Shown here one piece after another: positions 339 to 18,384 of a stretch of DNA of 18,384 nucleotides. Made by a program: the position numbers and the translations under genes. Numbering within the stretch: position 1 is the stretch's first letter; each line of letters opens with the position of its first letter. Where the stretch lies: contig DHXA01000237.1 in the NCBI GenBank assembly GCA_002413455.1, positions 1 to 18,384 on the forward strand, written 5' to 3'. This stretch comes from Rhodanobacter sp. UBA5168. Lineage in GTDB: Bacteria > Pseudomonadota > Gammaproteobacteria > Xanthomonadales > Rhodanobacteraceae. The notes under the pieces are model-generated. The model ran no database searches and was not told the origin of the DNA. It saw only the letters and a program-made list of their open reading frames with translations.

Positions 339-390
339 GGTTTTTCTTCTTCTCTAGGTGTCGGTGCCGGAGTGGACGCGGCGTGGTGCG

Positions 391-428
391 AAAAAGCATG
401 CGGCCCGGCGCATGGCCGGGCCGCATGC
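391..428 (-). terminator. Strong intrinsic terminator after the histone H1-like gene
   Basis: A perfect 14-bp GC-rich stem (396-409 with 415-428, 5-nt loop) is followed on the minus strand by five T (391-395). It begins 8 nt after the H1-like stop codon. It should end transcripts from nrdJa and the H1-like gene before nrdJb, whose start is 53 nt further on. Confidence 0.85.
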
Positions 429-436
429 GGTGTTGC

Positions 437-1162: not shown

Positions 1163-1195
1163 GCTGATTTTCCCCTCCGATGGACCACTTGAGTT

Positions 1196-1218
1196 GTCGC
1201 ACGCCGATGGCGTGCGAC
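1196..1218. other. Perfect 10-bp hairpin between nrdJa and the H1-like gene
   Basis: The arms 1196-1205 and 1209-1218 are perfectly complementary with a 3-nt loop. The hairpin starts 3 nt after the nrdJa stop on the minus strand. No T-run follows on the minus strand (the next bases are AACTCAAG), so it is not a classical terminator. It may act as an attenuator or as an RNA-stability element between the two genes. Confidence 0.5.
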
Positions 1219-1221
1219 GGT

Positions 1222-4200: not shown

Positions 4201-4506
4201 CGGCTTGTGCGCCAGCGCGCCGGCGTTGGAGGTGATGCGGCCGGCGGGGATCGCACCGCGGCGCAGCGCCCACAGGAAACGCTCGTACCAGTGGCCGCGC
4301 AACTCGTCGCTGGCTTCCACGTCGGACAGCGCACGCGCCACGCGCTGATACGTGCCGTCGATGGTGATGTCGACCGGCTCGCCGGACTTCGCCTTCAGGC
4401 GATATTTCTTGTCCCAGATGTCGTACGACGCGGGTTGTAGTGGAATTTCCACGACGGCATCACGACCTGTGGCTGAATTTGTGGCTGGGGCACGCATTGT
4501 GCTCAT
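1222..4506 (-). CDS. nrdJa: Adenosylcobalamin-dependent (class II) ribonucleotide reductase catalytic subunit NrdJa, intein-containing
   Basis: A 1094-residue precursor. Removing the intein (residues 328-701) leaves ~720 residues, normal for NrdJa. The enzyme reduces ribonucleotides to deoxyribonucleotides with a thiyl radical made from adenosylcobalamin, independent of oxygen (family knowledge). Seen in the sequence: STINCTVSGT (Cys109, probable redox-pair cysteine), GCGIGYEFS, and after splicing the NPCGEQPL motif. That motif contains the Asn-x-Cys-x-Glu active site (Asn326, Cys702, Glu704 in precursor numbering). CLLGSINL (Cys713) matches the second redox cysteine of other reductases. KGCTTFRFN lies near the C-terminus. 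No N-terminal ATP-cone is visible, so overall-activity allosteric control by ATP/dATP is unlikely. The ATG at 4506 has a GAGAGG site about 12 nt upstream. NrdR-like boxes lie in the upstream region. No cobalamin riboswitch was recognised. nrdJb, needed as partner, lies two genes downstream. Confidence 0.95.
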   Translation of the reverse strand: MSTMRAPATNSATGRDAVVEIPLQPASYDIWDKKYRLKAKSGEPVDITIDGTYQRVARALSDVEASDELRGHWYERFLWALRRGAIPAGRITSNAGALAHKPATSTINCTVSGTIRDSMDDILEKVHEAGLTLKAGCGIGYEFSTLRPRGAYVSGAGAYTSGPLSFMDIYDKMCFTVSSAGGRRGAQMGTFDISHPDAKEFIRAKREDGRLRQFNLSLLITDGFMDAVEHDQDWPLVFPVHVKEKDEIDVDDPTKVIWREWPTHENYVDREDGLVACKIYSHIRARHLWDMIMVSTYDYAEPGFILIDKVNEMNNNWWCEHIRATNPCVTADTWVQTSEGPRQVSDLLGHGFMARVDGKDHTTGAEGFFRTATKPVLALQTEEGHRLRLTEDHRVRRVSRLTRWSVDTEWCAAGALRPGDRVLLNDHRANAQWSGALTAEQGYLLGMLVGDGTLKHEAAVLSVWPQAAVVNGCVNGAAHALMAEALRCAQTLPHRADFAGWSEVSGRGEFRMKSAALRDLAFEFGMSVGDKAITPALEQASSEAYRGFLRGFFDADGSVQGSQAKGVSVRLAQSDMPRLEAVQRMLLRLGMPSRIYRDRRAADESLLPDGHGGSRVYATQAQHELVIAGESLLRFAELIGFADTDKATRLKAALSGYQRNLNRERFVATVASLHADGVEDVYDVQVPGINTFDGNGLHAHNCGEQPLPPYGSCLLGSINLTTFVRDPFGPKARFDWDEYREVVKVFTRMLDNVVEINGLPLEQQRNEIMSKRRHGMGFLGLGSTVTMLKHRYGSAEAVAFTEEVSREMAVAGWEVALELAKEKGAAPILLRDFTVTGDMLRKRPEMVTDGYKVGDSIPGRVLHAKYSRYMQRIASVAPNLVAELAETGARFTHHSSIAPTGTISLSLANNASNGIEPSFAHSYSRNVIREGKKSKEKVEVLSFELLAYRALINAEAKVFTDEADNKLPDYFVSADDISPKEHVDIQAASQKWIDSSISKTANVPTDYPYEDFKDIYFYAYKQGLKGCTTFRFNPAAFQGVLVKDSDLESTLYRFELEDGSVVELKGNEQVEYDGEMHSAANLFDALKEGYYGKF
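2404..3525 (-). mobile_element. Intein with LAGLIDADG (DOD) homing endonuclease, in-frame in nrdJa
   Basis: A 374-residue in-frame insertion between Pro327 and the extein Cys702. It begins with Cys (CVTADTWVQTSEG, block A), has LTEDH as block B (intein residues 62-66), and ends VYDVQVPG...NGLHAHN followed by extein Cys (blocks F and G). All standard splicing residues are present: Cys1, block B Thr-x-x-His, penultimate His373, Asn374 and Cys+1. The block F position that is often His reads Asn (VPGIN). The endonuclease has both LAGLIDADG helices: YLLGMLVGDG (intein residues 116-125, catalytic Asp124) and FLRGFFDADG (221-230, Asp229). Both catalytic acids are intact, so the element may still be mobile. 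It is open throughout with no frameshift. GC content looks similar to the host gene, so recent arrival is not obvious from composition. Confidence 0.93.
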
Positions 4507-4860
4507 CGGCTTCTAAGACCTCTCGGTGTGGCCTTGCGGCCCCCGTTGATTTTTATTTGATACGACGGTGTCGTTTACGTTGTGTCCGCTGCAGCCAACA
4601 GGTCGTGAGGATTGCCCTCCGACCTTGTGCCACTTGTTTCCGACGACAACGACTCCCCCTCAAGAGTGCGATGGTCGACACCAGTGCTTGTCTCAGCGCT
4701 GGCACTTGAACACAAGATGTTGTGGTTGCTATCGGATAGGCAAGTTAACCCTGACGCCGCTGGAAGTAAAGTGCCCACGGCCGCATTCGGACCGATGGAA
4801 CCGCCGCGCCCCGTACCGGTCGAACCAGCGCCGCATTTGTCGCCCTTAGAGGAGGAATCC
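4507..4860. other. Divergent intergenic region between nrdJa and the degQ-type gene
   Basis: 354 bp with no convincing gene. It must contain the nrdJa promoter (minus) and the protease promoter (plus). The clearest signals are two NrdR-like boxes (4678-4693, 4710-4725). No confident -35/-10 pair was found for either direction. TTGAAC (4706-4711) and TATCGG (4730-4735), spaced 18 bp, is a weak plus-strand candidate overlapping the upstream box. The region is less GC-rich than its flanks, with a short AT-rich tract at 4549-4561. The plus-strand frame open from 4612 into the protease is treated as non-coding because the signal peptide and ribosome-binding site start at 4861. Confidence 0.6.
4678..4725 (-). 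promoter_or_regulatory. Tandem NrdR-like boxes upstream of nrdJa
   Basis: The box at 4710-4725 reads acacaagatgttgtgg and matches the published NrdR consensus acaCwAtATaTwGtgt at 13 of 16 positions. A second, weaker box at 4678-4693 (acaccagtgcttgtct) matches at 10 of 16. Their starts are 32 bp apart with a 16-bp gap, about three helical turns. This is the arrangement known for NrdR, the nucleotide-sensing repressor of ribonucleotide reductase genes. Matches were counted by eye. Confidence 0.6.
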
Positions 4861-6261
4861 ATGTCGCCACAACGTTTCCGACTTTGGCACTGGCTGGCCG
4901 GTCTGCTGGTGTCCGCCGCCATCGGCGCCGCGCCGGCCAGCGCGGTGGCCGCCACCTTGCCGGCGGCGGTCGACGGCCAGCCGATGCCCTCGCTGGCGCC
5001 GATGCTGGCGCGGGTGACGCCGGCGGTGGTGAACATCTCCACCAAGACGCGCGTGCAGGTGCGCGATGCGTATTTCGACGACCCGATGGTGCGCCAGTTC
5101 TTCGGCCTGCCCGCGGCACCGCGCGAGCGGGTCGAGCAGAGCCTGGGCTCGGGCGTGATCGTGGACGCGGCCAAGGGCTACGTGCTGACCAACAACCACG
5201 TGGTCGGCGGCGCCGACGACATCAGCGTGACCTTGCAGGACGGGCGCACGTTCAAGGGCAAATTGATCGGCACCGACCCGGACACCGACGTGGCGGTGGT
5301 GCAGATCCCCGCGCAAAATCTCGAGGCGCTGCCGCTGGCCGATTCGACCCGGCTGCAGGTGGGCGATTACGTGGTGGCGGTGGGCGATCCGTTCGGCCTT
5401 GGCCAGACGGTGACTGCCGGCATCGTTTCCGCGCTCGGGCGTTCGGGGTTGGGCAGCTCCGATGGGGAAAGCTCCGGCTACCAGAACTTCATCCAGACCG
5501 ACGCGTCGATCAATCCCGGCAACTCCGGCGGCGCGCTGGTGAACCTGCGCGGCGAACTGGTCGGCATCAACACGATGATCTTCTCGCCGTCGGGCGGCAA
5601 CGTCGGCATCGGCTTTGCGATTCCCAGCGCCATCACCACGGAAGTGATGGGCCAGTTGCTGGCGCACGGCAAGGTGCAGCGCGGCAGCCTCGGCGTGCAG
5701 ACGCAGGCGATCACGCCGCGCATCGCGCAACTGCTGAAGCTGAAGGACAACAACGGCGTGGTGGTCACCGGGGTCAGCGACGACTCGTCCGCTGCACGCG
5801 CCGGCTTGCAGCCGGGCGACGTGCTGACCACGCTCAATGGCAAACCGTTGCGCAGCGAGCAGGAGCTGCGCAACGCCGAAGGCCTGCTGCCGCTGGGCAG
5901 CGCGGTGCAACTGGGCGTGCTGCGCGACGGCCATGACCGCCAGGTCAGCGCCACGCTCGCCGCGGAGAAGCTGGCCAGCATCGACGGCGGCCAGCTCGAT
6001 CCGCGCCTCAGCGGCGTGCGCTTCAGCGAACTCGACGAGCGCCAGCGCAGCGACGGCCTCTACGGCGTGGCGATTGGCGCGGTGCAACCGGGGAGCGGTG
6101 CCGCGCGCGCGGGGCTGACCACCGACGACGTGGTGATCGGCGTGGGCAACCAGCGCATCACCAGCCTGCGCATGCTGCGCGGGCTGGCCGGCGTGAAGCC
6201 GCGCCAGCTGGTGCTGGTGGTCGCCGACACCGATGGCACCCGCTATGTGGTGGTGAACTGA
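4861..6261 (+). CDS. degQ: Do-family periplasmic serine endoprotease, DegQ-type
   Basis: 466 residues. An N-terminal signal peptide (about residues 1-31, hydrophobic WLAGLLVSAAIGAAPASAVA) sends it to the periplasm. The trypsin-like domain carries the triad His113 (NNHVV), Asp143 (DTDVAVVQI) and Ser222 (GNSGGAL). Two PDZ domains follow, around residues 265-365 and 380-466. The family degrades or refolds misfolded envelope proteins in large oligomers (family knowledge). The loop between the N-terminal strand and the protease core is short, unlike the long LA loop of DegP, which favours a DegQ-like or MucD-like assignment; the paralogue is not certain. The start at 4861 is preceded by AGGAGG (4850-4855). 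The open frame continues upstream to 4612, but a longer start would bury the signal peptide. It is divergent from nrdJa and separated by 224 bp from the next gene, so it is probably its own unit. Confidence 0.92.
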   Translation: MSPQRFRLWHWLAGLLVSAAIGAAPASAVAATLPAAVDGQPMPSLAPMLARVTPAVVNISTKTRVQVRDAYFDDPMVRQFFGLPAAPRERVEQSLGSGVIVDAAKGYVLTNNHVVGGADDISVTLQDGRTFKGKLIGTDPDTDVAVVQIPAQNLEALPLADSTRLQVGDYVVAVGDPFGLGQTVTAGIVSALGRSGLGSSDGESSGYQNFIQTDASINPGNSGGALVNLRGELVGINTMIFSPSGGNVGIGFAIPSAITTEVMGQLLAHGKVQRGSLGVQTQAITPRIAQLLKLKDNNGVVVTGVSDDSSAARAGLQPGDVLTTLNGKPLRSEQELRNAEGLLPLGSAVQLGVLRDGHDRQVSATLAAEKLASIDGGQLDPRLSGVRFSELDERQRSDGLYGVAIGAVQPGSGAARAGLTTDDVVIGVGNQRITSLRMLRGLAGVKPRQLVLVVADTDGTRYVVVN

Positions 6262-6485
6262 AACACGGCGCAAAGCCGACATCGGCAAACCGTGGCGTGG
6301 ATCGCCGGCCCGCCGTGTCCCGGCGCACAGGCTGGCGTACTGCCTCGCGCAAATCCATGAAAGTGCTTGATGTTTTGTGTTCAGGCCGATGCAATATCCT
6401 TTCGGGTTCACTCTATGTGCGCCCGCAAGGCGGCATACTCGCGCCATTACATCCACACCTAATCATGCCGGGGTTCCCCACCACC

Positions 6486-7835
6486 ATGTCCGTCCGTCTT
6501 GCCCGCCTGCTGTCCGTCGCCCTGATCGGGGCCTGCGTCGTCACTGCCCCGGCATTTGCCAAGAGTCACCCCAAAGCCAAGGCCAGGGCCAGCGCACCCG
6601 CGAGCGGCCCCACCCTGATCTGGCGCGGCGACGTCGCCACCGCCAACGGCGTGGTCGACGACGTGGCAGCGGCGTGGGAAAAGAGCGGTCACGGCCATAT
6701 TGAACTGCAGCCGTTCAACACCGCATCGGGTATCGACGCGGTGGCCAACGGCACCGCGGATCTGGCCGGCAGCGCGCGCGCCGGCGATGGCAGCGCGCAG
6801 AACACCAACCTCACCTTCACCCCGGTGGCCTGGGATGCGCTGGTGATCATCACCCAGTCGTCCAACCCGGTCAGCAACCTCACGCTGAAGCAGGTGCACG
6901 ACATCTATTACGGCAAGATCCACAACTGGAGCGAGGTCGGCGGCAACAATGCGCCGATCGACGTATATGCGGTGGCCAGCCCCGGCGACGGCGTGGAGTT
7001 CAGCCTGCGCAGCCTGCTGTTCGGCCGCGGCAACCAGCCGGTGGCCGCGCCGCGGCTGTACGTCAACACGCGCAAGCTGGAGGAAGGCATCGCGCTCAAT
7101 CCGAACGGCCTGGGTGTGACCACGCTCGCGGGCATCAGTGGCAACGGCAAGCTCAAGGCGATCCCGGTCAACGGCAAGCGAGCCACCGTCGCCAACGTCG
7201 CCGATGGCAGCTATCCCCTGTTCATTCCGCTGTATCTGGTGACCAATCCGAGCAGCCCGAAGGCCGCCAGTGCGCAGGCTTTCGTCGACTTCGTGCAGAC
7301 CGAGCCGGGCAAGGCCGTGCTGCGCAAGCACGCCGTGCTGCCCTATCAGGATGGCAGCGCGCTGACTGCGATGGACAGCTCGCGGCGTAGCCGCATCCTC
7401 GCCGAAGTCGGTGCGCGCGCCAGCCATGTCACGCCGGTCTCGGCACCGGGCGCGACCTACGCCGCGCGCGCTGCGGTGGCGCCCACATCGCCCGATACGG
7501 TGGCGGCCAGGACAGCGCTGGAAGCACGCCGTGCAGACGCGGCGGACACGGCCCGGCTCAACCGCATCAGCGGCAGTGTGAGCGACCTCACCGTCAGCGG
7601 CGTGGCGCACGCCAACGGCTCGGCCACCACGGTGAGCCAGACCAGCGGCAAGGATTTCGGCAAGGTCACCGCCGACGCCAGCCAGACCGCGACGACCTAC
7701 AAGGTGACCAAGGGCGACACGCTGTCCTCGATCGCCAAGCGGCATGCGGTCGAGGTCGCCAAGCTGCGCGAATGGAACCACCTGAAGAACGATCAGCTCA
7801 AGCTCGGCCAGGTGCTGCGCGTCAGCAAGCGCTGA
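6486..7835 (+). CDS. PstS-like substrate-binding protein with C-terminal LysM domain
   Basis: 449 residues. A signal peptide (about 1-25, ending APAFA) is followed by a basic Lys/Ala stretch. A phosphate-binding-protein-like domain follows (about 43-290), recognisable from FNTASGIDAVANGTADLAGSAR, LTLKQVHDIYYGKIHNWSEVGG and YPLFIPLYLVTNP. An Ala/Thr/Ser-rich linker of ~110 residues leads to a LysM motif at 404-447 (TYKVTKGDTLSSIAKRH...LKLGQVLRV), which normally binds peptidoglycan glycans. No PstC, PstA or PstB transporter genes are adjacent, so it may sense or store an anion, or act as a wall-anchored binding protein, rather than feed a local transporter; that is inference. An alternative in-frame ATG lies at 6465; neither start has a strong ribosome-binding site. 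Cys17 within IGAC could be a lipobox, but the AxA site after it looks better. Confidence 0.82.
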   Translation: MSVRLARLLSVALIGACVVTAPAFAKSHPKAKARASAPASGPTLIWRGDVATANGVVDDVAAAWEKSGHGHIELQPFNTASGIDAVANGTADLAGSARAGDGSAQNTNLTFTPVAWDALVIITQSSNPVSNLTLKQVHDIYYGKIHNWSEVGGNNAPIDVYAVASPGDGVEFSLRSLLFGRGNQPVAAPRLYVNTRKLEEGIALNPNGLGVTTLAGISGNGKLKAIPVNGKRATVANVADGSYPLFIPLYLVTNPSSPKAASAQAFVDFVQTEPGKAVLRKHAVLPYQDGSALTAMDSSRRSRILAEVGARASHVTPVSAPGATYAARAAVAPTSPDTVAARTALEARRADAADTARLNRISGSVSDLTVSGVAHANGSATTVSQTSGKDFGKVTADASQTATTYKVTKGDTLSSIAKRHAVEVAKLREWNHLKNDQLKLGQVLRVSKR

Positions 7836-7847
7836 GCCAAAGCTGGC

Positions 7848-8558
7848 GTGCAGATACTCGCACTCACGCTGGATCTGGACGACACGCTGTGGCCGGTGCT
7901 GCCGGCGCTGGAACGCGCCGACCAGGCGGTCGACGCCTGGCTGCGGCAGCATCACCCCGAGGTCGCTCGCGCGTGGCCGATCACGGCCATGCGCGAGCTG
8001 CGCGCACGGGTCGCCGCCGAACGGCTCGACCTGGCGCACGACTTCACCACCCAGCGCCAACTCACCCTGCAGCAGGCGTTTGCCGCCTGCGGCGTCGCCG
8101 CCGCGCCGATCGAGGCGCTGTGGGAAATCTACTTCGCGGCGCGCAACTGCGTGGAGCTGTACCCGGACAGCCTGCCGGCCTTGGAGCGGATCACCGCACG
8201 CTGGCCGCTGGCCAGCCTGACCAACGGCAACGCCGACCTGCAACGCATCGGCATCCACGCGCACTTCGCCCATCAGGTCTGCGCGCGCGACAGCGGCGTG
8301 GCCAAGCCCGACCCGCGGATTTTTCTGGTCGCTGCCGAACGGCTGGGCGTGGCACCGCAGCAGATCCTGCATGTCGGCGACGATCCGGCGATGGACATGG
8401 CCGGCGCGCGCGATGCCGGCCTGCGCACTGCCTGGATCAATCGCGACGCGCGGCCCTGGCCGCCCGAACTGGGACCGCCACCGGAGCTGGATCTGCGCGA
8501 CATGACTGCGCTGGTCGACTGGCTCGAAGCACAGGCTCCTGCTGCCAAGGGCCGATAG
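7848..8558 (+). CDS. HAD-superfamily phosphatase, YigB-like
   Basis: 236 residues, starting with GTG only 12 nt after the preceding stop, so probably translated from the same message. The four HAD motifs are visible: motif I LDLDDT (Asp9 nucleophile, Asp11), motif II SLTNGN (Thr125), motif III Lys153 in VAKPDP, and motif IV HVGDDPAMD (Asp178, Asp179). The TNGN and HVGDD forms and the overall layout with an alpha-helical cap after motif I resemble Escherichia coli YigB, an FMN and sugar-phosphate phosphatase. The substrate here is not determined by sequence. GTG is chosen because motif I begins at residue 9 and no ATG lies upstream in frame near it; the next ATG would remove the nucleophile. 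Confidence 0.85.
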   Translation: MQILALTLDLDDTLWPVLPALERADQAVDAWLRQHHPEVARAWPITAMRELRARVAAERLDLAHDFTTQRQLTLQQAFAACGVAAAPIEALWEIYFAARNCVELYPDSLPALERITARWPLASLTNGNADLQRIGIHAHFAHQVCARDSGVAKPDPRIFLVAAERLGVAPQQILHVGDDPAMDMAGARDAGLRTAWINRDARPWPPELGPPPELDLRDMTALVDWLEAQAPAAKGR

Positions 8559-8646
8559 GCAGGCGGCGGGCATTGCGCGCATCATTGGCGATTCGCCATC
8601 CATGGCACACCTCGCGTCGTGCCAACGCAAGCCAGAAGGAATCCGC

Positions 8647-10026
8647 ATGTCCGCCCTGATCGAACGCCAACCCGGCGGCCGCTACAGCATCCCCATCGAA
8701 ACCACCGACGCCGCGCATTACGCCGCGACCCGGCGCCGGCTCAGTGCGCCGCAGCGCCGCTGGTTGAGCGACAGCGGTTTCGAGGCGGCAGCGGGCACCT
8801 TCGCGCTGTTGTCCGATCCCGCCGGCAAGCTGGTGCGGGTGCTGGTCGGGATCGATCCGGCCGATCCGCTGGTGGCGCTCGCGGCGTTGCCGTGCACGCT
8901 GCCCGAGGCCAGCTATCACCTTGCCGCCGAAGGCGTCCTGGGCGATCAGGCGCTGGCGGCACTGGGCTGGGCGCTGGGCGCGTATCAGTTCAGCCGCTAT
9001 CGCCCGCCGAAGCGTACGCCGGCCCGGCTCGCCGTGAGCGCAACCGAACTGCAGCAGCTGGCGCCGCTGGTGGAAGCCACCACGCAAGTGCGCGACCTGG
9101 TCAATACGCCTACCGAAGACATGGGGCCGGCGCAGCTGGCGGACGCGGTCAGGCAGCTCGGCAAGGCGCACAAGGCGAAGCTGCGCGAGTGGGTCGGCGA
9201 CGAACTGCTCAAGGCCAACTTTCCGACCATCCATGCGGTGGGCCGCGCCAGCCATCGCGCACCACGCCTGGTGGAGCTGAGCTGGGGCAAGGCCAGCGAT
9301 CCGAAACTGGTGGTGGTCGGCAAGGGCGTGTGCTTCGACACGGGCGGGCTCGACCTGAAATCGTCCGACGGCATGCGCTGGATGAAGAAGGACATGGGCG
9401 GCGCCGCGCACGCGATCGCGCTGGCCGGGCTGATCATGCAAGCCGGATTGCCGGTGCGGCTGACCCTGCTGATTCCGGCCGTGGAGAACGCCGTCGCCGG
9501 CAACGCGATGCGGCCGGGCGACGTGATCGCCACCCGCGCCGGGCTGACGGTCGAGGTCGACAACACCGATGCCGAAGGCCGGCTGGTGCTGTGCGATGCG
9601 CTGGCTTACGCGGCCGAGCAGCAACCCGAACTGATCATCGACTTCGCCACCCTGACCGGCGCCGCGCGCGTCGCGCTGGGGCCCGACCTGCCGGCTCTTT
9701 TTTCCAACGATGACGCGCTGGCGCAGACCGCGCTGGCCGCTGGCCGTACGGTCGGTGATCCGCTGTGGCAGCTGCCGCTGTGGCGGCCGTACCGCCGGAT
9801 GCTCGATTCGTACGTGGCCGATGTCGCCAACGCCGGCCCCTCGCGTCACGCCGGCGCGATCACCGCGGCGCTCTATCTCGAGCGCTTCGTGCCCGAGAAC
9901 ATTGCCTGGCTGCACCTGGATACCTACGCCTGGAACGATGGCGATCGTCCCGGCCGGCCGCGTGGCGGTGAGGCGATGGGCCTGCGTGCGATGTTTGCAT
10001 TTCTGCAAGGCCGCTACGCGCGCTGA
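8647..10026 (+). CDS. M17 leucyl aminopeptidase family metallopeptidase
   Basis: 459 residues, cytoplasmic, no signal peptide. The C-terminal catalytic domain has the two-metal site seen in PepA: Lys226 and Asp231 in VGKGVCFDTGG, Lys238, Asp249 in MKKDMGG, and Asp308, Glu310 and Arg312 in the family signature NTDAEGRL. All ligands are present, so an active exopeptidase releasing N-terminal residues from peptides is expected. The ~150-residue N-terminal domain is shorter and more divergent than in PepA, as in other compact M17 members. The start at 8647 has AGAAGGA 6 nt upstream. An in-frame ATG at 8602 lacks such a site. It follows the HAD gene by 88 bp with no terminator seen, so read-through from upstream is possible. 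Confidence 0.92.
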   Translation: MSALIERQPGGRYSIPIETTDAAHYAATRRRLSAPQRRWLSDSGFEAAAGTFALLSDPAGKLVRVLVGIDPADPLVALAALPCTLPEASYHLAAEGVLGDQALAALGWALGAYQFSRYRPPKRTPARLAVSATELQQLAPLVEATTQVRDLVNTPTEDMGPAQLADAVRQLGKAHKAKLREWVGDELLKANFPTIHAVGRASHRAPRLVELSWGKASDPKLVVVGKGVCFDTGGLDLKSSDGMRWMKKDMGGAAHAIALAGLIMQAGLPVRLTLLIPAVENAVAGNAMRPGDVIATRAGLTVEVDNTDAEGRLVLCDALAYAAEQQPELIIDFATLTGAARVALGPDLPALFSNDDALAQTALAAGRTVGDPLWQLPLWRPYRRMLDSYVADVANAGPSRHAGAITAALYLERFVPENIAWLHLDTYAWNDGDRPGRPRGGEAMGLRAMFAFLQGRYAR

Positions 10027-10061
10027 GACTTTCGGTTCGGCTGCCGACGCATGATCGCGGG

Positions 10062-10092
10062 TTGCTTCGTTGCGTGATCGCGTTCTTATACT
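10062..10092 (+). promoter_or_regulatory. Candidate promoter for the TPR/Asp-hydroxylase gene
   Basis: TTGCTT (10062-10067) and TATACT (10087-10092) resemble sigma-70 -35 and -10 elements. The -10 matches at five of six positions, but the spacer is 19 bp, longer than ideal. It lies 30 bp before the start codon at 10122. Confidence 0.35.
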
Positions 10093-10121
10093 TGCCGGTA
10101 CGTTCCTGGAGTGAACCACCG

Positions 10122-11447
10122 ATGGCCAGCTCGCCGGATGCCACGCCCGCGACCTGCCGCGCGCAAGCGCTTGCGGGGTTGCAGCGTGGCGACATGACGC
10201 TTGCCGAGCAGGCCTTTTCGCGCCTGCTCGAGGTGCAGCCCGACGACGCCGAAGCGCTGCAGTTCCTGGCCACCTGCCAGCTCGGCCGGGGAAACACCCC
10301 GCGTGCGATCGAGCTGCTGCAAACGGCGCAACGCAGCCAGCCGCAGGACGCGGCGATCCTGCATCAGCTGGGTTCGGCACAGATGCTGGCCGGGGATCTG
10401 CTTGCCGCCGCGGACAACTTGCGCAAGGGCCTGCAGCTGGCGCCCGGCATGTTCGTGGCGCGGCTGCGCCTGGGCGTCGTGTTCGAGCAGCAGGGACGCC
10501 GGCATGAAGCCATGCTGGCTTATCTGGACGCGATCAACGCGGCCCAGGCACAGGGCCGCTGGCTCAGCGACGACACCACCGCGCCGGGCGTGCGCGACGC
10601 GGTAAAGCACGCCACGCACTACATCGCCGCGGGTCGACGCGAGACGTTCGATGCGGTGATCGAGCCGTTGCGGCAACGCTACGGACGATCGGAGCTGACC
10701 CGCGTCGACCAGTGCCTGGCCATCTATCTCCATGAGCAACCTGCGCCGTTGCCTGATCCGCGACAGCGGCCCGAGTTCCTGTACTTTCCGGGCATCCCCA
10801 GCCAGACCTTCTACCCACGTGAGCGCTTTCCGGCGCACGCACGGCTGGAGGCTGCCGTCGATGTGATCCGTGAGGAACTGCGCGCCGTGCTGGCGGGGGA
10901 CGACCTCGTGCCTTTCCTCGGTGCTCCCTCGGCCGAGGCGGTGGCGGCGCACCTGCTGGATTCGTCCGGTACGCAAGAGGCGGCATGGGATGCCTTCTTC
11001 TTCTATCGGCACGGTGTGCGCCATGACGCCAACTGCGCGCGCTGCCCGCGCACCATCGAGCTGCTGGACTCCGTGCCGCTGGTCCGGGTTCGCGACCACG
11101 CGCCGGAAACGCTGTATTCGGTGCTGCGCCCGGGTACGCACATCCTGCCGCACCGCGGCGTCACCAATACCCGCCTGGTCACCCATCTTCCGCTCATCGT
11201 GCCGCCGGATTGCGCGTTGCGCGTCGGTGGCGAAACCCATGTGTGGGAGGAAGGCCGCTGTATCACCTTCGACGATACGTTCGAGCACGAAGCGTGGAAC
11301 CACAGCGAGCAGACCCGCGTGGTGTTGATCATGGACAGCTGGAATCCCGATCTCAGCGAGACGGAACGGGCGGCGGTGGCCGACCTGGTGGCAGCCATTG
11401 GCGACTTCAATCGGTCCGGTGCGATTCCGGCGCCATCAACAGCCTGA
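10122..11447 (+). CDS. TPR protein with C-terminal aspartyl/asparaginyl beta-hydroxylase domain
   Basis: 441 residues. The first ~140 form about three to four tetratricopeptide repeats (for example AEQAFSRLLEVQPDDAEALQ). The C-terminal ~230 residues match the Asp/Arg hydroxylase family of Fe(II)/2-oxoglutarate dioxygenases. The spacing fits human AspH: His344 in LPHRGVTNTR and His389 in TFEHEAWNH are 45 apart (AspH His679 and His725), Arg399 follows the second His by 10 (AspH Arg735), and His355 matches AspH His690. The family uses two His iron ligands without a carboxylate. Probable activity is hydroxylation of Asp or Asn side chains in a protein or peptide, with TPRs as the docking part (inference). 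A CxxC pair lies in NCARCP just before the iron site. GGAG (10108-10111) supports the ATG. It is followed by a TonB receptor 206 bp downstream. No export signal is seen, so it should act in the cytoplasm. Confidence 0.88.
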   Translation: MASSPDATPATCRAQALAGLQRGDMTLAEQAFSRLLEVQPDDAEALQFLATCQLGRGNTPRAIELLQTAQRSQPQDAAILHQLGSAQMLAGDLLAAADNLRKGLQLAPGMFVARLRLGVVFEQQGRRHEAMLAYLDAINAAQAQGRWLSDDTTAPGVRDAVKHATHYIAAGRRETFDAVIEPLRQRYGRSELTRVDQCLAIYLHEQPAPLPDPRQRPEFLYFPGIPSQTFYPRERFPAHARLEAAVDVIREELRAVLAGDDLVPFLGAPSAEAVAAHLLDSSGTQEAAWDAFFFYRHGVRHDANCARCPRTIELLDSVPLVRVRDHAPETLYSVLRPGTHILPHRGVTNTRLVTHLPLIVPPDCALRVGGETHVWEEGRCITFDDTFEHEAWNHSEQTRVVLIMDSWNPDLSETERAAVADLVAAIGDFNRSGAIPAPSTA

Positions 11448-11653
11448 GATCTGCGGCATCGCACCGCCGGCGTTCACCGCCGCCTCCACGATATCCGCCA
11501 GCGACGCGCCATCTGCGCGCAAGACCGTTCCAGAGAGTAGTCTTTGGACTATCAAGCACGGGCAACCGTTGCGGCGTCATCGGGCGCGTGCTTGTGGCGT
11601 TGGGGGACGTCTGAAGTCAAAGACCATCACTTCGCATCTATCGGGGAGAACGT

Positions 11654-14536
11654 ATGAAATACGGCATGAATCACCTGTCGTTGGCGGTGCGTCTGGCGCT
11701 CACGGCGGGTATTTTGACGACGGCAGGCATGGTCCAGGCACAGGACTCGCCCATCAATAATTCACAGCAAACCGATCAGACCACAACCCCACCAGCCAAG
11801 AACAAGGCCAAGACCCTGGAAGCGGTGGTCGTGACGGGCTCGCTGATCCGGCGTGTGGATGCCGAGACGGCCAGCCCGGTAGTGACGCTGGATCGCGCCG
11901 CCCTCACCAACTCTGGCAAACCCGTGCTGGGCGATGTGTTGCAGCAACTGCCGAGCATCTCAGGCAATGCCACCAACCCGTCGAACAACAGCAACGGCGG
12001 TGGCGTGGCCAGTCCCCTGCTGGAAGCCGGCGATGGTGCGTCGCGCGTCTCGCTGCGCGGCCTGGGCATCAATCGCACGCTGGTGCTGGTCAACGGCCAG
12101 CGCATGGCCAACCCGGATATCAACCTGATCCCGCCGGAGATGATCGAGCGGGTCGACGTGCTCGCCGAAGGTGCCTCCACGGTGTACGGCTCCGACGCCA
12201 TCGGTGGCGTCGTCAATTTCATTCTGCGCAAGGACTTCAAGGGTGCCCAGTTCAGCTTGAACGACGGCATCTCCAGCCACGGCGACGCCCAGCGCCGCGG
12301 CTTCAACCTGACCGCGGGCAGCACGGGTGAGAACTACAGCATTGCCGGCGGCCTCGATTACAACAAGTACGACGCAGTGCTCGGCGCCCGGCGCAAGTTC
12401 TCCAAGCAGCAGCTGTACCTGTCGAGCGGTTCTGTCGTGGCGGCCGGCTCCAGCTCGATTCCGACCGGCAGAATCCAGCTGCCCGCATCGGTCGCCAGCC
12501 AGTACGGCTGCCCGATCAATTCGAGCGGCACCGCCAACGTGACCCTGGCGCAGGGCGACGGATCGTCCCTGGGTGATTACCGTTGCCGCCTCGCCTCGGA
12601 TACCTACAACTACGCTGCGCTCAATTACATCCAGACCGCACAAAAGCGCACCAACGGCTTCATCCTCGGAAGCTACAACCTCACCGACAACCTGACCGCC
12701 TTCGTCGATGCGTTCTACAACCACACGTCATCCAGCGGCCAGGATGCACCGTCACCGGTCGGGACCGGCGACGGCCTGATCATCTCCTCCAGCAATCCGA
12801 TCAATCCGTTTGGCGTCACGTTCAGCCAGAACCCCGTCCCCGGCGATCCGAACAGCGGCTACAGCTTCCAGACCCGCCTCACCGGCGCCGGCACGCGCGT
12901 GCACAGTTACACCACCAACACCGGCCAGATCAACACGGGGCTGCGCGGCAATTTCGGCCAGGACAGCAGCTGGATCTGGGATGCATCGATCAACTACAGC
13001 CATACCAAACGCGACCAGCGCGATACCAACGAGGTGGACATACCGGCACTGCAGGCAGCCGTCGACAGTGGCGCGAATATCTTCAACCAGGCCGACCCGA
13101 GCGTCGGCGAGCAATTGCGGGGAGGCGTGAAAACGCCGATCTACGTCTTCACCCAGTCCACCAAGCAGGGCCAGTTCAACGCCAGCGGCGAGCTGTGGGA
13201 TTTGCCCGCCGGCGCGATGCAGCTGTCCGCCGGCGCCTTGTACCGCAAGCAGTTCATGAACTACACCGTGAGCCCCTTCGCCGTCCTCGATCCGGTGACC
13301 ACCACGTGCCAGATTCTGCAGGAAGCCTGCGGCTCGCCCGGGCGCGGCAGCTTCGACGTCAAGGAGCTGTACGCCGAAACACTCATCCCATTGCTCTCCG
13401 AGCAGCCGTGGGCTCAGTCGTTGAACCTCGACCTCGGCGTCCGCACATCCCGCTACAGCACCACCGGCACCACCACCAACGGCAAGATCGCGATCGAGTG
13501 GCGTCCCACGGCCGACCTGCTGGTACGTGGCACGGTCTCCCAGGTGTTTCGCGCACCCAACCTCAATGAACTCTACGATGGCCGCACGCTGGTGCAGCCA
13601 AACTTGAACGATCCGTGCCGCGGACTCACCGCGGCCGATCTGGCGGCGCATCCGGCAGCCTGCCAGTTCGTTCCGGTGAACTGGGCCGGCAACTCGCCGG
13701 CGCAGGTCAACACGTTCTACTCCGGTGCCGCCACGGTCGGTGCGACGCTGAAGCCGGAAAAGGGCAAGTCCATCGATCTCGGACTGGTCTACGATCCGGA
13801 CTGGCTACCGGGCCTGTCCACCAGCGTCGACTTCTGGCACATCTACCTGGCCGACACGCTGACGGCGATCCAGGCCGATATCGTCGTCAACTCCTGTTTC
13901 AACAACGCCAACAGCCCGTATTGCTCATTCATCCACCGCCAGGACAACACCAGCAGGACGCCGGGCCAGGTGTTCCTGATCAATACCCCGGTGGTCAATC
14001 TGGGCAATCTGAGCACCACCGGCATCGACTACACGCTGCGCTACAAGATCCCGCATTTCGATCTGGGCAGCGTGGACCCGGGAAATTTCCGGGCCGGCCT
14101 CAGCACCAGCTACACGTCGACTTACAAGATCAACGCCACGCCCGGCGAGCCGGGTGCCGAGACGATCAACTACGCCGGCACCTTCACTCCGCAGTTCGGC
14201 AACATCTCGCGCTGGCGCGGCACGGTCACGCTCAATTGGGACAAGGGCAACTGGAACGCCCAGTGGCAGTCGCGCTACATCAACAAGCTGACCGCCCTCA
14301 ACGCCGATGCCGCCATCAGCGGCGTGAACATCCCGATGGCCTCGGTGATCTACCACTCGATCCAGCTGGGCTACGCGGTGCCATCGATCCACACCCGCTT
14401 CGACGTCGGCGTGGACAACCTCAGCAACAAGCTGCCACCGCTGGTCTACCAGAATGGCGCCAACTACAACGTGGATACCGCCACGTACGACGTGCTCGGC
14501 CGCTATTACTGGGCGCGGGCGACGATCAAGTTCTGA
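11654..14536 (+). CDS. Large TonB-dependent outer-membrane receptor
   Basis: 960 residues. The signal peptide is about 1-29, cleaved after MVQA. A Gln/Thr/Pro linker leads to a TonB-box-like TLEAVVVTGSLIR (residues 54-66). The plug domain (about 65-190) contains RVSLRGLGINRTLVLVNGQR and GASTVYGSDAIGGVVNFILR. The rest is a 22-strand type beta-barrel ending in Phe960, the usual outer-membrane assembly signal. The family imports ligands such as siderophores, oligosaccharides or peptides using the proton-motive force. This Asn/Thr-rich, cobalamin- and siderophore-unlike subtype is common in Xanthomonadaceae and sphingomonads and its ligand cannot be named. Eight cysteines occur as four close pairs (286/311, 552/559, 655/670, 748/757), all in the barrel region. 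The start at 11654 has GGGGAG upstream (11643-11648). Genes for a TPR-hydroxylase and a TPR-sulfotransferase flank it. A 17-bp hairpin follows the stop. Confidence 0.93.
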   Translation: MKYGMNHLSLAVRLALTAGILTTAGMVQAQDSPINNSQQTDQTTTPPAKNKAKTLEAVVVTGSLIRRVDAETASPVVTLDRAALTNSGKPVLGDVLQQLPSISGNATNPSNNSNGGGVASPLLEAGDGASRVSLRGLGINRTLVLVNGQRMANPDINLIPPEMIERVDVLAEGASTVYGSDAIGGVVNFILRKDFKGAQFSLNDGISSHGDAQRRGFNLTAGSTGENYSIAGGLDYNKYDAVLGARRKFSKQQLYLSSGSVVAAGSSSIPTGRIQLPASVASQYGCPINSSGTANVTLAQGDGSSLGDYRCRLASDTYNYAALNYIQTAQKRTNGFILGSYNLTDNLTAFVDAFYNHTSSSGQDAPSPVGTGDGLIISSSNPINPFGVTFSQNPVPGDPNSGYSFQTRLTGAGTRVHSYTTNTGQINTGLRGNFGQDSSWIWDASINYSHTKRDQRDTNEVDIPALQAAVDSGANIFNQADPSVGEQLRGGVKTPIYVFTQSTKQGQFNASGELWDLPAGAMQLSAGALYRKQFMNYTVSPFAVLDPVTTTCQILQEACGSPGRGSFDVKELYAETLIPLLSEQPWAQSLNLDLGVRTSRYSTTGTTTNGKIAIEWRPTADLLVRGTVSQVFRAPNLNELYDGRTLVQPNLNDPCRGLTAADLAAHPAACQFVPVNWAGNSPAQVNTFYSGAATVGATLKPEKGKSIDLGLVYDPDWLPGLSTSVDFWHIYLADTLTAIQADIVVNSCFNNANSPYCSFIHRQDNTSRTPGQVFLINTPVVNLGNLSTTGIDYTLRYKIPHFDLGSVDPGNFRAGLSTSYTSTYKINATPGEPGAETINYAGTFTPQFGNISRWRGTVTLNWDKGNWNAQWQSRYINKLTALNADAAISGVNIPMASVIYHSIQLGYAVPSIHTRFDVGVDNLSNKLPPLVYQNGANYNVDTATYDVLGRYYWARATIKF

Positions 14537-14565
14537 CCGTCTGACGGGAGGGGAACATCCGGAGC

Positions 14566-14605
14566 ATGCAAGAGGGCCGCGAGCACGTTCGCGGCCCTCT
14601 TGCAT
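14566..14605 (+). terminator. Long hairpin after the TonB receptor gene, possible terminator
   Basis: A perfect 17-bp stem (14566-14582 with 14589-14605) with a 6-nt loop lies 29 nt past the receptor stop. No T-run follows on either strand, so it could be a Rho-assisted terminator, a partial attenuator or an RNA 3'-end protector. The next start codon is only 33 nt further on. Confidence 0.5.
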
Positions 14606-14638
14606 AATGGGGATCGGAAGACGATCGATGGAGAAGCC

Positions 14639-16501
14639 ATGTCCACTGCGACCACGGATCTGGCCAAAGCCATGGCCGGTGCCTGGAACGCCGGCGAGCC
14701 GGAGCGGGTCATCGCTCTTGCGGGGCAGGCCACGCCGTCCCAGGAGAAGAACGAAGGCGTGCTGATGCTGCTCGGTCTGGCGCAGCAGGCGACCGGTCGC
14801 CCGCAGCAGGCCGCGGCGACATTCCGGTTGCTCGCGCAGATGCGACCGGACGTTTCGGCTCACTGGAACAACCTGGCCGTCGCCTGCCGGCAGGCGGGCG
14901 ATCTGCCAGGATCCGAGCAGGCACTGCTGACCGCGCTGTCGCTGGCGCCGGACGATGCCGAGGTGCACTACAACCTCGGCCTGCTCTACACGCAGCAACG
15001 GCACTGGCTGCTGGCCCGGCAGAGCTTGCTGGATGCGGCGCGGCTGGCTCCGCATTTCATCGAAGCCCGGCTGCAGGCCGCCTATGCCTGCTACGTCTGC
15101 GGCGACAACACGCATCAGGAAGCCATGCTGGATGGCGCCATCGACTGGCCGGCACAACCGGCGGAGCAAGCCCTGGTGCTGTCCGCCATGCTGTCGGTCC
15201 AGGGCAACCTGGATGCAGCGCTGCGCACGCTGGCGCACGCACAATTGCCCGCCGAACCGGCGGCCGGGGTCATGCGTTTGCGCATCGCCGCGCAGCGCGT
15301 CTTGCTGTACGAAAGAAACAACCAGATCGACACAGCGCAAGACGAACTGCAGCAGTTGCCGCCGGAGGCGCTGGACGCCCTGCCAGCGGAGGCGGAACAG
15401 GCCCGCGCCGATGGCTGGCGCGCGCACGCTGCCATGGCGATGCGCAGGGGTGCTTATGCGGATGCGGAGGCGCTTTACCAGCGCGTGCTCGCCTGCGCCA
15501 TCGACGACGAAAGCCAGGCCAGCGCCGCCTTTGGCCTGGCGTCCGCTCGCGACCGGCAAGGGCGGTATGCCGAGGCGTGGCAAGCCCTGCAGACGGCGCA
15601 TGCCACACAACTCGGCATCGCCCGCAACGTGGTGCCGGAGCTGCTGGCAGCAGACAGCCAACCGCTGCAGGTGACCGGCGCCCGCGTCGAGCATGCCTCC
15701 CATGCCGGCTGGAAACCGTTGTCCTCACCTGGCAGCCGGCAGAGCCCGGTCTTCGTGGTCGGCTTCCCCCGCTCCGGCACCACCTTGCTGGAACAGATGC
15801 TCGACGCCCATCCGGACTACCAGTCCATGGACGAGCGCGCGTACATCCATGAGCTGATCGAAGGCATGGAACTGGTTGGCCAGCACTATCCCGAGGACCT
15901 GGCGAACCTGACGCAGCCGGACGCCGATCAACTGCGCAGCGTCTATGCCCGCAGGGTCGGCCACGTACTGCCCGAGCTCGGCGAGCGCCGCCTGGTGGAC
16001 AAGAATCCACTCAACATGCTGTGCCTGCCAATGATCATGCGGTTGTTTCCGCACGCGCGCATCATCCTGTGCCTGCGTCATCCCTGCGACGTGCTGCTCA
16101 GCTGCAGCATGCAGCCGTTCCGCTCGCCGGCGTTCATGGTGCTGTGTTCGTCGCTGCAACGCCTGGCCCAGGGCTACACAAGAGCCTTCGACCAGTGGTA
16201 CCGCGATGTCGACGTGTTCGCACCGCATGTGCTGGAGTGGCGCTACGAATCCGTCGTCAGCCAGTTCGACGAACAGGTCGCGCGCCTGGGGCAGTTCCTC
16301 GAGACAGCCGACGCATCGCCCATGACACGCTTCGCCGAACACGCACGGGACAAGCGTTTCATCAGCACACCCAGCTATGCGCAAGTCACCGAAGGCGTTC
16401 ACCGCAAGGCGGTCGGTCGCTGGCAGAACTATCGCGAACAGTTCGAGCCCGTGCTGCCGGCGCTGCGGCCGTGGATCGATCGGCTCGGCTACACCGCATA
16501 G
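14639..16501 (+). CDS. TPR-repeat sulfotransferase
   Basis: 620 residues. Residues about 10-340 are a series of tetratricopeptide repeats (for example HWNNLAVACRQAGDLPGSEQ and HYNLGLLYTQQ). The C-terminal ~250 residues are a sulfotransferase domain of the Sulfotransfer_3 type. It has the 5'-phosphosulfate loop GFPRSGTTLLE (Gly375 onward) and the 3'-phosphate motif LRHPCDVLLS (Arg480 to Ser488) that bind PAPS. The family transfers sulfate to tyrosine or to carbohydrate; for TPR fusions the acceptor is generally unknown. TPRs suggest a protein or peptide acceptor (inference). No signal peptide is visible. The ATG at 14639 has GGAGAAG at 14630-14636. A TTG at 14600 would place the start inside the hairpin and is not preferred. 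It sits directly after the TonB receptor and 89 bp before an M1 peptidase gene. Confidence 0.88.
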   Translation: MSTATTDLAKAMAGAWNAGEPERVIALAGQATPSQEKNEGVLMLLGLAQQATGRPQQAAATFRLLAQMRPDVSAHWNNLAVACRQAGDLPGSEQALLTALSLAPDDAEVHYNLGLLYTQQRHWLLARQSLLDAARLAPHFIEARLQAAYACYVCGDNTHQEAMLDGAIDWPAQPAEQALVLSAMLSVQGNLDAALRTLAHAQLPAEPAAGVMRLRIAAQRVLLYERNNQIDTAQDELQQLPPEALDALPAEAEQARADGWRAHAAMAMRRGAYADAEALYQRVLACAIDDESQASAAFGLASARDRQGRYAEAWQALQTAHATQLGIARNVVPELLAADSQPLQVTGARVEHASHAGWKPLSSPGSRQSPVFVVGFPRSGTTLLEQMLDAHPDYQSMDERAYIHELIEGMELVGQHYPEDLANLTQPDADQLRSVYARRVGHVLPELGERRLVDKNPLNMLCLPMIMRLFPHARIILCLRHPCDVLLSCSMQPFRSPAFMVLCSSLQRLAQGYTRAFDQWYRDVDVFAPHVLEWRYESVVSQFDEQVARLGQFLETADASPMTRFAEHARDKRFISTPSYAQVTEGVHRKAVGRWQNYREQFEPVLPALRPWIDRLGYTA

Positions 16502-16590
16502 GATCCGCAGCCCGGCGGCATGACTTCTGGCGTTGTCGCGCCAGCCTGGAACATTGCATCCTGCCGGATCTCCACGATCGGAAGCCCATC

Positions 16591-18342
16591 ATGCATTTTC
16601 GCCTGCACCTGCTCGCCGCCAGCGTGGCGCTTGGTCTCGCCGCCTGCACCAGCGTACCCATCGCCAAGACCGCGGCACCGGCCCAACCGGCGCTGACCGC
16701 GCAGACGCTGAACTCCGGCGGCATGATGCCGGCCGAGCAGGCACGCGTGCATTTCGATCATGCCGAGCTGCATTTCGCGGTCGATCCTGCGAAACAACGC
16801 ATCGACGCCACCGCCACGCTGAGTTTTACCGCCAAGTCGAGTACCGACACACTGCTGCTGGACCTCGATCGCAATCTGCCGATCAGCGCCATCGCGCTGG
16901 ATGACCAGCCGCTTGCCGCCAGCGGCTGGAGCAATCCGGACGGCCGCCTGCGCATCCAGCTGCCGGCACCGCTCGCCGCAGGCGGCAAGGTGCGTGTGAC
17001 TGTTCGCTACGGCGGCAAGCCGCACGTGGCGAAGAAGGCGCCGTGGGACGGCGGCTTCGTGTGGAGCCACACCGCTGACGGCCAGCCGTGGGTGGCCAGC
17101 GCGGTCGAGGGCGAGGGCTGCGATCTGTTCTGGCCGTGCATCGACCAGCCGCAGGGCGAGCCCGACCTGGTCGATACTTTCATCACCGTGCCCAAGGCGC
17201 TGGCCGCACCCGGCAACGGCGTGCTGGTGGGCATCACCGACGAGGGCGACCAGCACACCTACCACTGGCGCGCCAAGCATCCGGATACCTATGCGATCTC
17301 GATCAACGTCGGCCCCTTCGATGTTTTGAAGGGCAATTACGCGAGCCGCTACGGCAACACCATCCCGATGCAGTTCTGGTATCTGCGCGGACAGGAAGCA
17401 CAGGCGAAGGAGTTGTTCGCCGGCTTCCCCCGCATGCTGGATTTCTTCGAGCAGGAGATCGGCCCGTATCCGTTCGGCGACGAGAAGATGGGCGTGGTGG
17501 AAACCCCGCACCTGGGCATGGAGCACCAGACCATCAATGCCTACGGCAACAACTACCGCCTGAACGGCTATGGGTTCGACCAACTGCTGCAGCATGAGTT
17601 TGCGCATGAATGGTTCGGCAACCAGGTCACCAACGCCGACTGGGACGACATGTGGCTGCACGAGGGTTTCGGCACGTACATGCAGCCGCTCTACAGCCAG
17701 TACCTCAATGGCGACATGGATTACTTCAGCTGGCTGCGCGATCTGCGCCTGATGTTGCGCAATCACCATCCGATCGTTTCCGGCAGCAGCAAGACCGAAG
17801 AACAGGTCTACGACGAGACGACAGGCCCCGGCCAGGACATCTACAACAAGGGTGCCGTGATGCTGCATTCACTGCGCCAACTGATCGGCGACAAGGATTT
17901 CTTCGAAAGCATCCGGCTGCTGGTGTATGGCCGGCCCGACCCCAAGCCGGGCAATTTCAGCCCGCGTTACGCGAGCACCAACGACTACATCGCCATCGTC
18001 GACAAGGTGACCGGACGCGACCTGCGCTGGTTCTTCGACGTTTACCTGCACGATGCCGCGCTGCCGCGGCTGGATGTGCGGCACGACGGCGACACGCTCA
18101 CGCTGCGCTGGACCACCGAGCACGGCAAGCCGTTTCCGATGCCGGTGGAAGTACAGGTGGGCGATGCGCTGCATGCGTTGCCGATGACGCACGGCGAAGG
18201 CCAGCTGAAGGTGCCCGCCGGCAGCCTGTTGATCGTCGACCCCCATTCGAAGCTGCTGCGCGAACTGCCGCACATCGATGCCTACCGGCAATGGATGAAA
18301 CAGCAGCGCGAGCAGAAACGGGGCAAGCAGGCCACGAAATAG
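16591..18342 (+). CDS. M1-family zinc aminopeptidase, predicted lipoprotein
   Basis: 583 residues. The N-terminus has a lipobox, LGLAAC with Cys19, so it is probably membrane-anchored in the periplasm. An N-terminal beta-domain (about 50-250) precedes a thermolysin-like catalytic domain. Zinc ligands are His335 and His339 in HEFAHEW, with Glu336 as general base, and Glu358 in LHEGFGTY, 18 residues after the second His as in gluzincins. The substrate-anchoring GxMEN-type motif reads LGMEHQT (309-314), and Tyr418 in DIYNKGAVM fits the transition-state tyrosine. All catalytic residues are present. The protein is shorter than PepN, lacking a large C-terminal helical domain. The start at 16591 has GGAAG upstream (16580-16584). 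A longer open frame from 16021 overlaps the sulfotransferase in another frame and is not used. It probably trims peptides in the periplasm. Confidence 0.9.
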   Translation: MHFRLHLLAASVALGLAACTSVPIAKTAAPAQPALTAQTLNSGGMMPAEQARVHFDHAELHFAVDPAKQRIDATATLSFTAKSSTDTLLLDLDRNLPISAIALDDQPLAASGWSNPDGRLRIQLPAPLAAGGKVRVTVRYGGKPHVAKKAPWDGGFVWSHTADGQPWVASAVEGEGCDLFWPCIDQPQGEPDLVDTFITVPKALAAPGNGVLVGITDEGDQHTYHWRAKHPDTYAISINVGPFDVLKGNYASRYGNTIPMQFWYLRGQEAQAKELFAGFPRMLDFFEQEIGPYPFGDEKMGVVETPHLGMEHQTINAYGNNYRLNGYGFDQLLQHEFAHEWFGNQVTNADWDDMWLHEGFGTYMQPLYSQYLNGDMDYFSWLRDLRLMLRNHHPIVSGSSKTEEQVYDETTGPGQDIYNKGAVMLHSLRQLIGDKDFFESIRLLVYGRPDPKPGNFSPRYASTNDYIAIVDKVTGRDLRWFFDVYLHDAALPRLDVRHDGDTLTLRWTTEHGKPFPMPVEVQVGDALHALPMTHGEGQLKVPAGSLLIVDPHSKLLRELPHIDAYRQWMKQQREQKRGKQATK

Positions 18343-18367
18343 GCGGCTTGCCAGCCCCGCTCGCCCC

Positions 18368-18384
18368 ATAAAAAAACCGGCGCC
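18368..18384 (-). terminator. Partial intrinsic terminator at the right edge
   Basis: On the minus strand GGCGCCGG runs directly into seven T (18370-18376). This looks like the 3' arm and T-run of an intrinsic terminator whose other arm lies beyond the window, probably serving a convergent minus-strand gene and perhaps also the M1 peptidase gene. The pairing cannot be verified. Confidence 0.4.

Follow-up and report, generated by a model that had tools for sequence, protein, structure and literature searches.

Why should two enzymes that modify side chains stand on either side of the gene for an outer-membrane receptor? The question is raised by 18,384 nucleotides of Rhodanobacter sp. UBA5168 (contig DHXA01000237.1, positions 1 to 18,384; this whole stretch is called the window), in which a first-pass annotation had placed, on one strand, an aspartyl/asparaginyl beta-hydroxylase of the AspH type, a TonB-dependent receptor (TBDR) and a sulfotransferase, both enzymes being fronted by tetratricopeptide repeats (TPRs). 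Open reading frames (ORFs) and Pfam domains confirm the three genes, on the plus strand and at the positions first claimed (Table 1). They most likely constitute a functional module, the enzymes of which are cytosolic, modify side chains and serve the pathway of the receptor. The observations behind this are the genes themselves, their intact active sites, a recurrent linkage and the existence of hydroxylase-sulfotransferase fusions; from them we infer a protein substrate, the receptor as that substrate, the order of the reactions and an effect on ligand binding. The receptor is tentatively put forward as the substrate of both enzymes, at somewhat less than even odds (about 0.45). The enzyme families are known, and the evidence points to an apparently undescribed TBDR-hydroxylase-sulfotransferase pathway, which would modify the receptor or the molecule bound by it: a search of open-access literature by titles and the beginnings of abstracts, outside which most subscription papers fall, gave no description of such a unit.

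Active sites and domain architecture

The hydroxylase matches PF05118 over residues 244-409 (165.5 bits against a cut-off of 22.6, E 1.1e-48), behind TPRs at about residues 14-142. The nearest solved relative of its oxygenase domain is human AspH (E 7e-31), which likewise consists of a TPR solenoid followed by a double-histidine oxygenase. His679, Arg688, His725 and Arg735 of the human enzyme align to His344, Arg351, His389 and Arg399 of the window enzyme, so that the two metal-binding histidines (344 and 389) and the arginine binding 2-oxoglutarate (2OG) have counterparts. His344, His389 and Arg399 are present in 85 of 85 aligned rows and Arg351 in 84, the window protein being counted twice. 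The ten best fold matches of the predicted model are all AspH TPR-oxygenase constructs; as the oxygenase part is poorly modelled (pLDDT between 32 and 75 in blocks of ten starting at residue 211; 18 sequences), this indicates a match of architecture only. The window enzyme differs from human AspH in being bacterial, in showing no N-terminal signal peptide by eye, in a TPR part that is similar only as TPRs in general are and in having no known EGF-type substrate. It is predicted to act on Asp or Asn within a polypeptide. A lipid (acyl) hydroxylase was considered and rejected, as the NCBIfam equivalog models OlsC (110.8 bits, cut-off 450) and LpxO (71.4 bits, cut-off 500) score far below their cut-offs.

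The sulfotransferase carries PF13469 at residues 370-556 (108.6 bits, cut-off 27), with the TPRs N-terminal to it. The nearest solved relatives of this domain are the human protein-tyrosine sulfotransferases TPST1/2 (E about 1e-8), with which it shares the 5'-phosphosulfate-binding motif PRSGTT (residues 377-382), a glutamate (Glu399) in the place of their catalytic Glu, and Arg480 and Ser488, which belong to the 3' site binding the sulfate donor 3'-phosphoadenosine 5'-phosphosulfate (PAPS). Glu399 and Arg480 are found in 128 of 128 rows and Ser488 in 124, the window protein again being counted twice. Small-molecule sulfotransferases mostly carry a His at the position of the TPST catalytic Glu. 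Unlike TPST1/2, the window enzyme is TPR-fronted and probably cytosolic, and its best match aligns over only about 115 residues; Tyr is a candidate acceptor. As judged from sequence, both enzymes of the module keep their catalytic residues.

The TPR parts of the two enzymes match those of OGT. In AspH and OGT such repeats hold polypeptides, and human AspH and TPST1/2 act on protein substrates. TPRs also front many of the enzymes in the related modules described below (Sel1 repeats in L214); the P4H-type oxygenase and the fusion proteins show none. The receptor has a plug (PF07715, residues 71-186, positions 11864-12211) and a barrel (PF00593, residues 389-923), and its AlphaFold2 model reaches a pLDDT of 79.9 and a pTM of 0.79.

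Linkage of the three genes

A lack of statistical co-occurrence in other genomes had been named beforehand as what would refute the link, and the link survived this test, both within the order and, at a smaller number of loci, beyond it. In all counts, related genomes are not independent and several loci end at contig ends. The host genome is a draft assembly of 3.76 Mb (275 contigs, completeness 85%). Of its 17 PF13469 matches, ten have one of the 30 plug matches at a distance of 10 kb or less, against 2.5 expected (p 3.5e-5); the 17 are spread over 12 contigs, five with a plug within 6 kb, and matches on the same contig are not independent. Among 101 genomes of the order, the sulfotransferase has 17 homologues at E <= 1e-50 (12 genomes, 10 genera), the neighbourhoods of which were all read, two of them in this genome. 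A TBDR is found within about 10 kb of 14 (the exceptions being L170, L172 and L173), directly upstream on the same strand at less than 300 bp in nine, and a 2OG hydroxylase is near 13 (the exceptions being L162, L163, L164 and L174).

The picture is similar when centred on the hydroxylase. The best 80 of at least 530 confirmed loci of the window's AspH family (at least 594 pattern matches) hold a TBDR in 50, a sulfotransferase in 57 and an AspH-sulfotransferase fusion in eight, and a TBDR directly precedes a sulfotransferase on the same strand in 43. Among the 42 loci that extend 9 kb or more to each side, a TBDR is present in 31, a sulfotransferase in 34 and the TBDR-sulfotransferase pair in 27. 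The 37 loci lacking this pair include a second AspH group (L058, L064, L066, L077 and others), at a site close to a gene that by eye resembles glutamine synthetase (13 of the 31 loci compared). Directly upstream of the AspH in this group there is often a gene for a TPR-sulfotransferase or for a protein with TPRs only, and the locus DNA contains no TBDR.

Outside the order, 398 genomes of the phylum gave 21 sulfotransferase matches in 20 loci at E <= 1e-40, a limit that differs from the 1e-50 of the order search. TBDR and hydroxylase occur together in three of the 20 (Fisher p 9e-4), and over all 37 sulfotransferase loci both are present in 13, only a TBDR in four, only a hydroxylase in three and neither in 17 (p 2e-4). 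As the hidden Markov models (HMMs) used in the scan were built from the module loci and this genome's receptors, remote receptors and oxygenases may be missed, which would lower both counts together. L190, in a genome related only at the level of the phylum, has the gene order of the window (AspH, TBDR and two sulfotransferases), L194 has a TBDR, a TPR-Oxy5 gene and a sulfotransferase in this order, and L195 holds a TBDR, a sulfotransferase, an AspH and a TPR-Oxy5. A search for AspH in the same 398 genomes added 33 loci, 31 of them outside the order, which together with L190 and L195 again makes 33. These contain a TBDR in 11 (weak in L199 and L203), a sulfotransferase in six and both in five (p 0.01). 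As TBDRs are common in genomes of this kind, the 11 are not striking by themselves. More striking are same-strand units of a TBDR followed by AspH at gaps of about 75-120 bp and without a sulfotransferase (L214, L218 and L227), which indicate that a hydroxylase can be the sole enzyme partner of the receptor as well.

The linkage is more than a conserved order, as the module genes stay grouped while their order changes. The order AspH, TBDR, sulfotransferase is found in the window and in L025-L030, while at the same chromosomal site L050 and L057 have TBDR, sulfotransferase, AspH, with an AspH from another branch of the AspH tree than that of L025-L030, as if the receptor-sulfotransferase pair had acquired an AspH twice. 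Elsewhere, the TBDR and sulfotransferase are followed by two reversed sulfotransferases and then AspH (L032, L035, L036, L042, L044, L047 and others), or occur with a P4H-type oxygenase in between (L033, L039, L086, L088, L093, L094, L097, L101 and L104), or the genes converge or diverge (L055, L056, L092, L098 and L100). The additional genes of the modules stay within the same two chemistries: sulfotransferases, oxygenases of PF13640 and PF13759, short AspH proteins and AspH-sulfotransferase fusions. On the AspH tree, made by a quick method and with long branches flagged, the presence of the TBDR-sulfotransferase pair requires nine changes, at least seven of them forced by the starred branches, and this link has consequently been gained or lost several times.

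Two further loci of this genome also have such enzymes near a TBDR. A second module (L015, contig C103, 4022-18670) comprises a TPR-sulfotransferase, a protein of 1043 aa in which the sulfotransferase domain occurs twice, a TPR-fronted 2OG oxygenase of PF13759, a TBDR sharing 37% identity with that of the window and an M28 peptidase. On contig C212 (L116, about 3291-7723, minus strand), a TBDR frame (4778-7723) precedes a tryptophan halogenase gene (PF04820, 629.7 bits) of the same strand, and another side-chain enzyme is thus paired with a TBDR here, although both the chemistry and the receptor differ from those of the module. TBDR genes with halogenase neighbours have been published, and the open-access literature search listed none of these cases.

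Hydroxylase-sulfotransferase fusions

The two enzyme domains are also fused within one protein family, with 3195 relatives at E <= 1e-3 (a number that includes the record of the query and is drawn from candidates of similar length). PF05118 and PF13469 are both present in all of the 120 relatives listed, at identities of 61% and up. These fusions point to a single substrate that is both hydroxylated and sulfated. Fusion proteins are encoded at L088 (11248-13062), L042 (12389-14242) and L139 (13286-15370), and are mostly annotated as sulfotransferase, lipopolysaccharide (LPS) sulfotransferase NodH or hypothetical protein.

Search for a precursor peptide

The shared substrate could also be a small peptide, and the first-pass annotation had advised looking for its gene near other copies of the module. 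In 32 loci of four arrangement groups, ORFs of 18-110 aa were present in 31, L101 having no candidate. Within the module span, 214 small ORFs from 23 loci form four families, none of them in more than two of the 32 loci, and a precursor gene inside the module was therefore rejected. The 15 most widespread families shown all lie outside the module genes, those of the window type within the M1 peptidase gene on the other strand and the rest in the 1.5-kb flanks. The gap between AspH and TBDR has a mean column identity of 53%, with 17 invariant columns among six sequences.

A precedent had been sought in RaxST and RaxX. According to PMC6637879, a PAPS-dependent tyrosine sulfotransferase modifies a ribosomal product in the raxX-raxSTAB system of Xanthomonas. 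The precedent fits in its chemistry, that of a bacterial PAPS-dependent sulfotransferase, and does not extend to the gene set: the module has a hydroxylase and a TonB receptor, and neither a RaxX-like small precursor nor a type I secretion or exporter gene was found, the latter among the ten window genes scanned by Pfam (the truncated ORF 3-338 excluded). A lasso-peptide cluster was rejected as well, the B2 family (PF13471) having no match in this genome, at its 85% completeness, and no match closer than 10 kb to the module in any of the 18 genomes examined.

What the enzymes may modify

As 2OG and PAPS are cytosolic co-substrates and no export signal was seen by eye in either enzyme, the substrate is probably modified in the cytosol. 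The receptor precursor is favoured because the TBDR is the most constant non-enzyme of the module, because it pairs with either enzyme alone and because no precursor gene was found. The N-terminal TPR solenoids would dock both enzymes on a polypeptide, in which the AspH-type oxygenase would hydroxylate an Asp/Asn-type residue and to which the TPST-like enzyme would transfer sulfate from PAPS. This polypeptide would be the co-encoded TBDR precursor, modified while unfolded and ahead of Sec export, and the hydroxylated and sulfated residues would end in the receptor plug or in the extracellular loops, where they would tune the binding of the ligand. The two reactions may even be coupled: a receptor Asp, Asn or Pro would be hydroxylated by the oxygenase, and the hydroxyl so formed would receive the sulfate; the fusion family and the repeated pairing of the enzymes near TBDR genes fit such a coupling, which is nevertheless rather unlikely. 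We know of no organism in which an aliphatic side chain is hydroxylated and then sulfated in this way.

A number of observations weigh against the receptor as the substrate. In a comparison of 37 module receptors with 12 non-module receptors, 190 positions are conserved in the former, 45 of which are rare in the latter, and no sequence signal marks a modified site: Tyr makes up five of the 45 module-specific against seven of the 145 other conserved positions (p 0.16), and Tyr, Asp and Asn together are not enriched (p 1.0). Neither partner is present in 18 of the 80 best AspH loci, 12 have a sulfotransferase and no TBDR (several ended by contig ends), 17 of the 20 remote sulfotransferase loci have neither TBDR nor hydroxylase in the locus DNA, and enzyme pairs stand without a nearby receptor at L172, L173 and L228. 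In a receptor-centred search of 143 genomes of the class (E <= 1e-80), five receptor loci were found outside this genome, of which L139 and L140 have module enzymes and L136, L137 and L138 have none in the surrounding DNA. A search centred on the fusion had matches in three of 299 genomes; L141 and L142 have the fusion without a TBDR, and at L143, where a TBDR and a sulfotransferase are present, what matched was a 369-aa piece of AspH. Members of the receptor family, and fusions too, hence also exist outside modules. Moreover, the nearest solved relative of the fusion's oxygenase part is an L-proline cis-4-hydroxylase, the substrate of which is the free amino acid. The module-specific receptor columns include four Cys (p 0.09), in loops read as extracellular from the strand order of the model; L136, one of the 12 non-module receptors, has this Cys/Tyr loop motif too, and could thus be of the module type but lack the accompanying enzymes. 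Of the original proposal, a substrate shared by hydroxylation and sulfation is thus favoured by the fusions and by the lack of a recurrent small ORF, while its identity with the receptor, against which the residue counts and the receptor-less enzyme pairs speak, is a step that we infer.

Somewhat unlikely, though better than the other alternatives, is that the enzymes hydroxylate and sulfate, in the cytosol, a ribosomal peptide or small metabolite encoded elsewhere, which is exported and re-imported through the TBDR in the manner of a siderophore or lasso peptide. TBDRs are uptake receptors, and the best fold matches of the modelled window receptor are enterobactin (siderophore) receptors, PfeA, at 14-15% identity. 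The proline-hydroxylase likeness of the fusion would agree with a small substrate, as would the resemblance of its sulfotransferase part to CurM and the existence of enzyme pairs without a TBDR. Table 2 of PMC10040529 gives a sulfotransferase, an aspartyl beta-hydroxylase, lasso-peptide B2, PqqD and Asn synthase cluster numbers that are nearly consecutive (1738-1748) in Pontixanthobacter/Allopontixanthobacter, a numbering that suggests adjacency, and so hints at peptide substrates in another group. Around the module, however, there is neither a recurrent small ORF, leaving a precursor encoded elsewhere, nor an exporter among the scanned window genes nor, in the genomes examined, a lasso B2 gene. 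Of the 25 most widespread further families shown for the 47 module loci, each belongs to the flanks of one particular chromosomal site, except that the protease family of the window's site recurs once elsewhere, in L104. Two-gene TBDR-AspH units such as L218 also leave scant room for a biosynthetic pathway.

It is improbable that the enzymes modify some other exported protein, or lipid A or ornithine lipid, with the TBDR linked for regulatory or historical reasons. The weak OlsC and LpxO similarities and the loci without a TBDR would allow for this, but TBDR and enzyme genes are repeatedly found as direct neighbours, in differing arrangements and also in distantly related genomes, and no lipid hydroxylase model reaches its cut-off, in contrast to the match with human AspH and its catalytic residues. 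Least probable of all is that the enzymes act downstream of uptake, hydroxylating and sulfating an imported compound for breakdown or detoxification: TBDR genes do often adjoin catabolic genes, and peptidases flank the module here (M17, M1) and on C103 (M28), but the M17 and M1 genes belong to the chromosomal site, no conserved inner-membrane transporter family was found among the families in at least five of the 47 loci (25 shown, named by eye), and the invariant Glu is TPST-like, unlike the small-molecule enzymes, which depend on His.

The window and its surroundings

The genes around the module are ordinary. Upstream lie an intein-bearing ribonucleotide reductase, a trypsin-like/PDZ protease, a PstS-like/LysM protein, a HAD hydrolase and an M17 aminopeptidase, and downstream an M1 peptidase. 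M17 and M1 were rejected as members of the module, which at this site lies on either side of M1. Named protein relatives are mostly from Rhodanobacter, Frateuria and Dyella; on the AspH tree, the closest protein is that of a Rhodanobacter. A scan of 9900-16700 gave no promoter-like site, and five terminator-like sites against 4.2 expected. The reductase intein (residues 329-680) is absent from the relatives L025, L028, L029 and L030, while L027 aligns across residues 1-754, and the intein accordingly varies among relatives.

Table 1. Positions of the module genes, the gaps between them and other features of the window.
Feature	Positions	Strand	Remarks
TPR-aspartyl/asparaginyl beta-hydroxylase (2-oxoglutarate/Fe(II) oxygenase), 441 aa	ATG 10122 to stop 11447	+	PF05118, TPR
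Gap between AspH and receptor, 206 bp	11448..11653		weakly conserved DNA; no small ORF common to more than two loci
TonB-dependent receptor, 960 aa	11654..14536	+	plug and barrel domains
Gap from receptor stop to sulfotransferase ATG, 102 bp	14537..14638		no small ORF common to more than two loci
TPR-sulfotransferase, 620 aa	ATG 14639 to stop 16501	+	TPRs and PF13469
Lys/Ala-rich repeat protein	437-1162	-	resembles histone H1-like HC2 (33 bits, below cut-off 40)
Ribonucleotide reductase large subunit	1222-4506	-	LAGLIDADG intein
PstS-like substrate-binding domain and C-terminal LysM domain in one protein	6297-7835	+	pairing looks unusual

Implications

TonB-dependent receptors are generally taken as unmodified transporters. 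A recurrent module tying them to TPR-docked hydroxylases and TPST-like sulfotransferases would open either the covalent tuning of outer-membrane receptors or a novel class of ligands, hydroxylated and sulfated, to direct tests in culturable Rhodanobacter, Dyella and Frateuria. It also suggests a role for the large set of AspH-sulfotransferase fusions and for the many sulfotransferase genes of such genomes.

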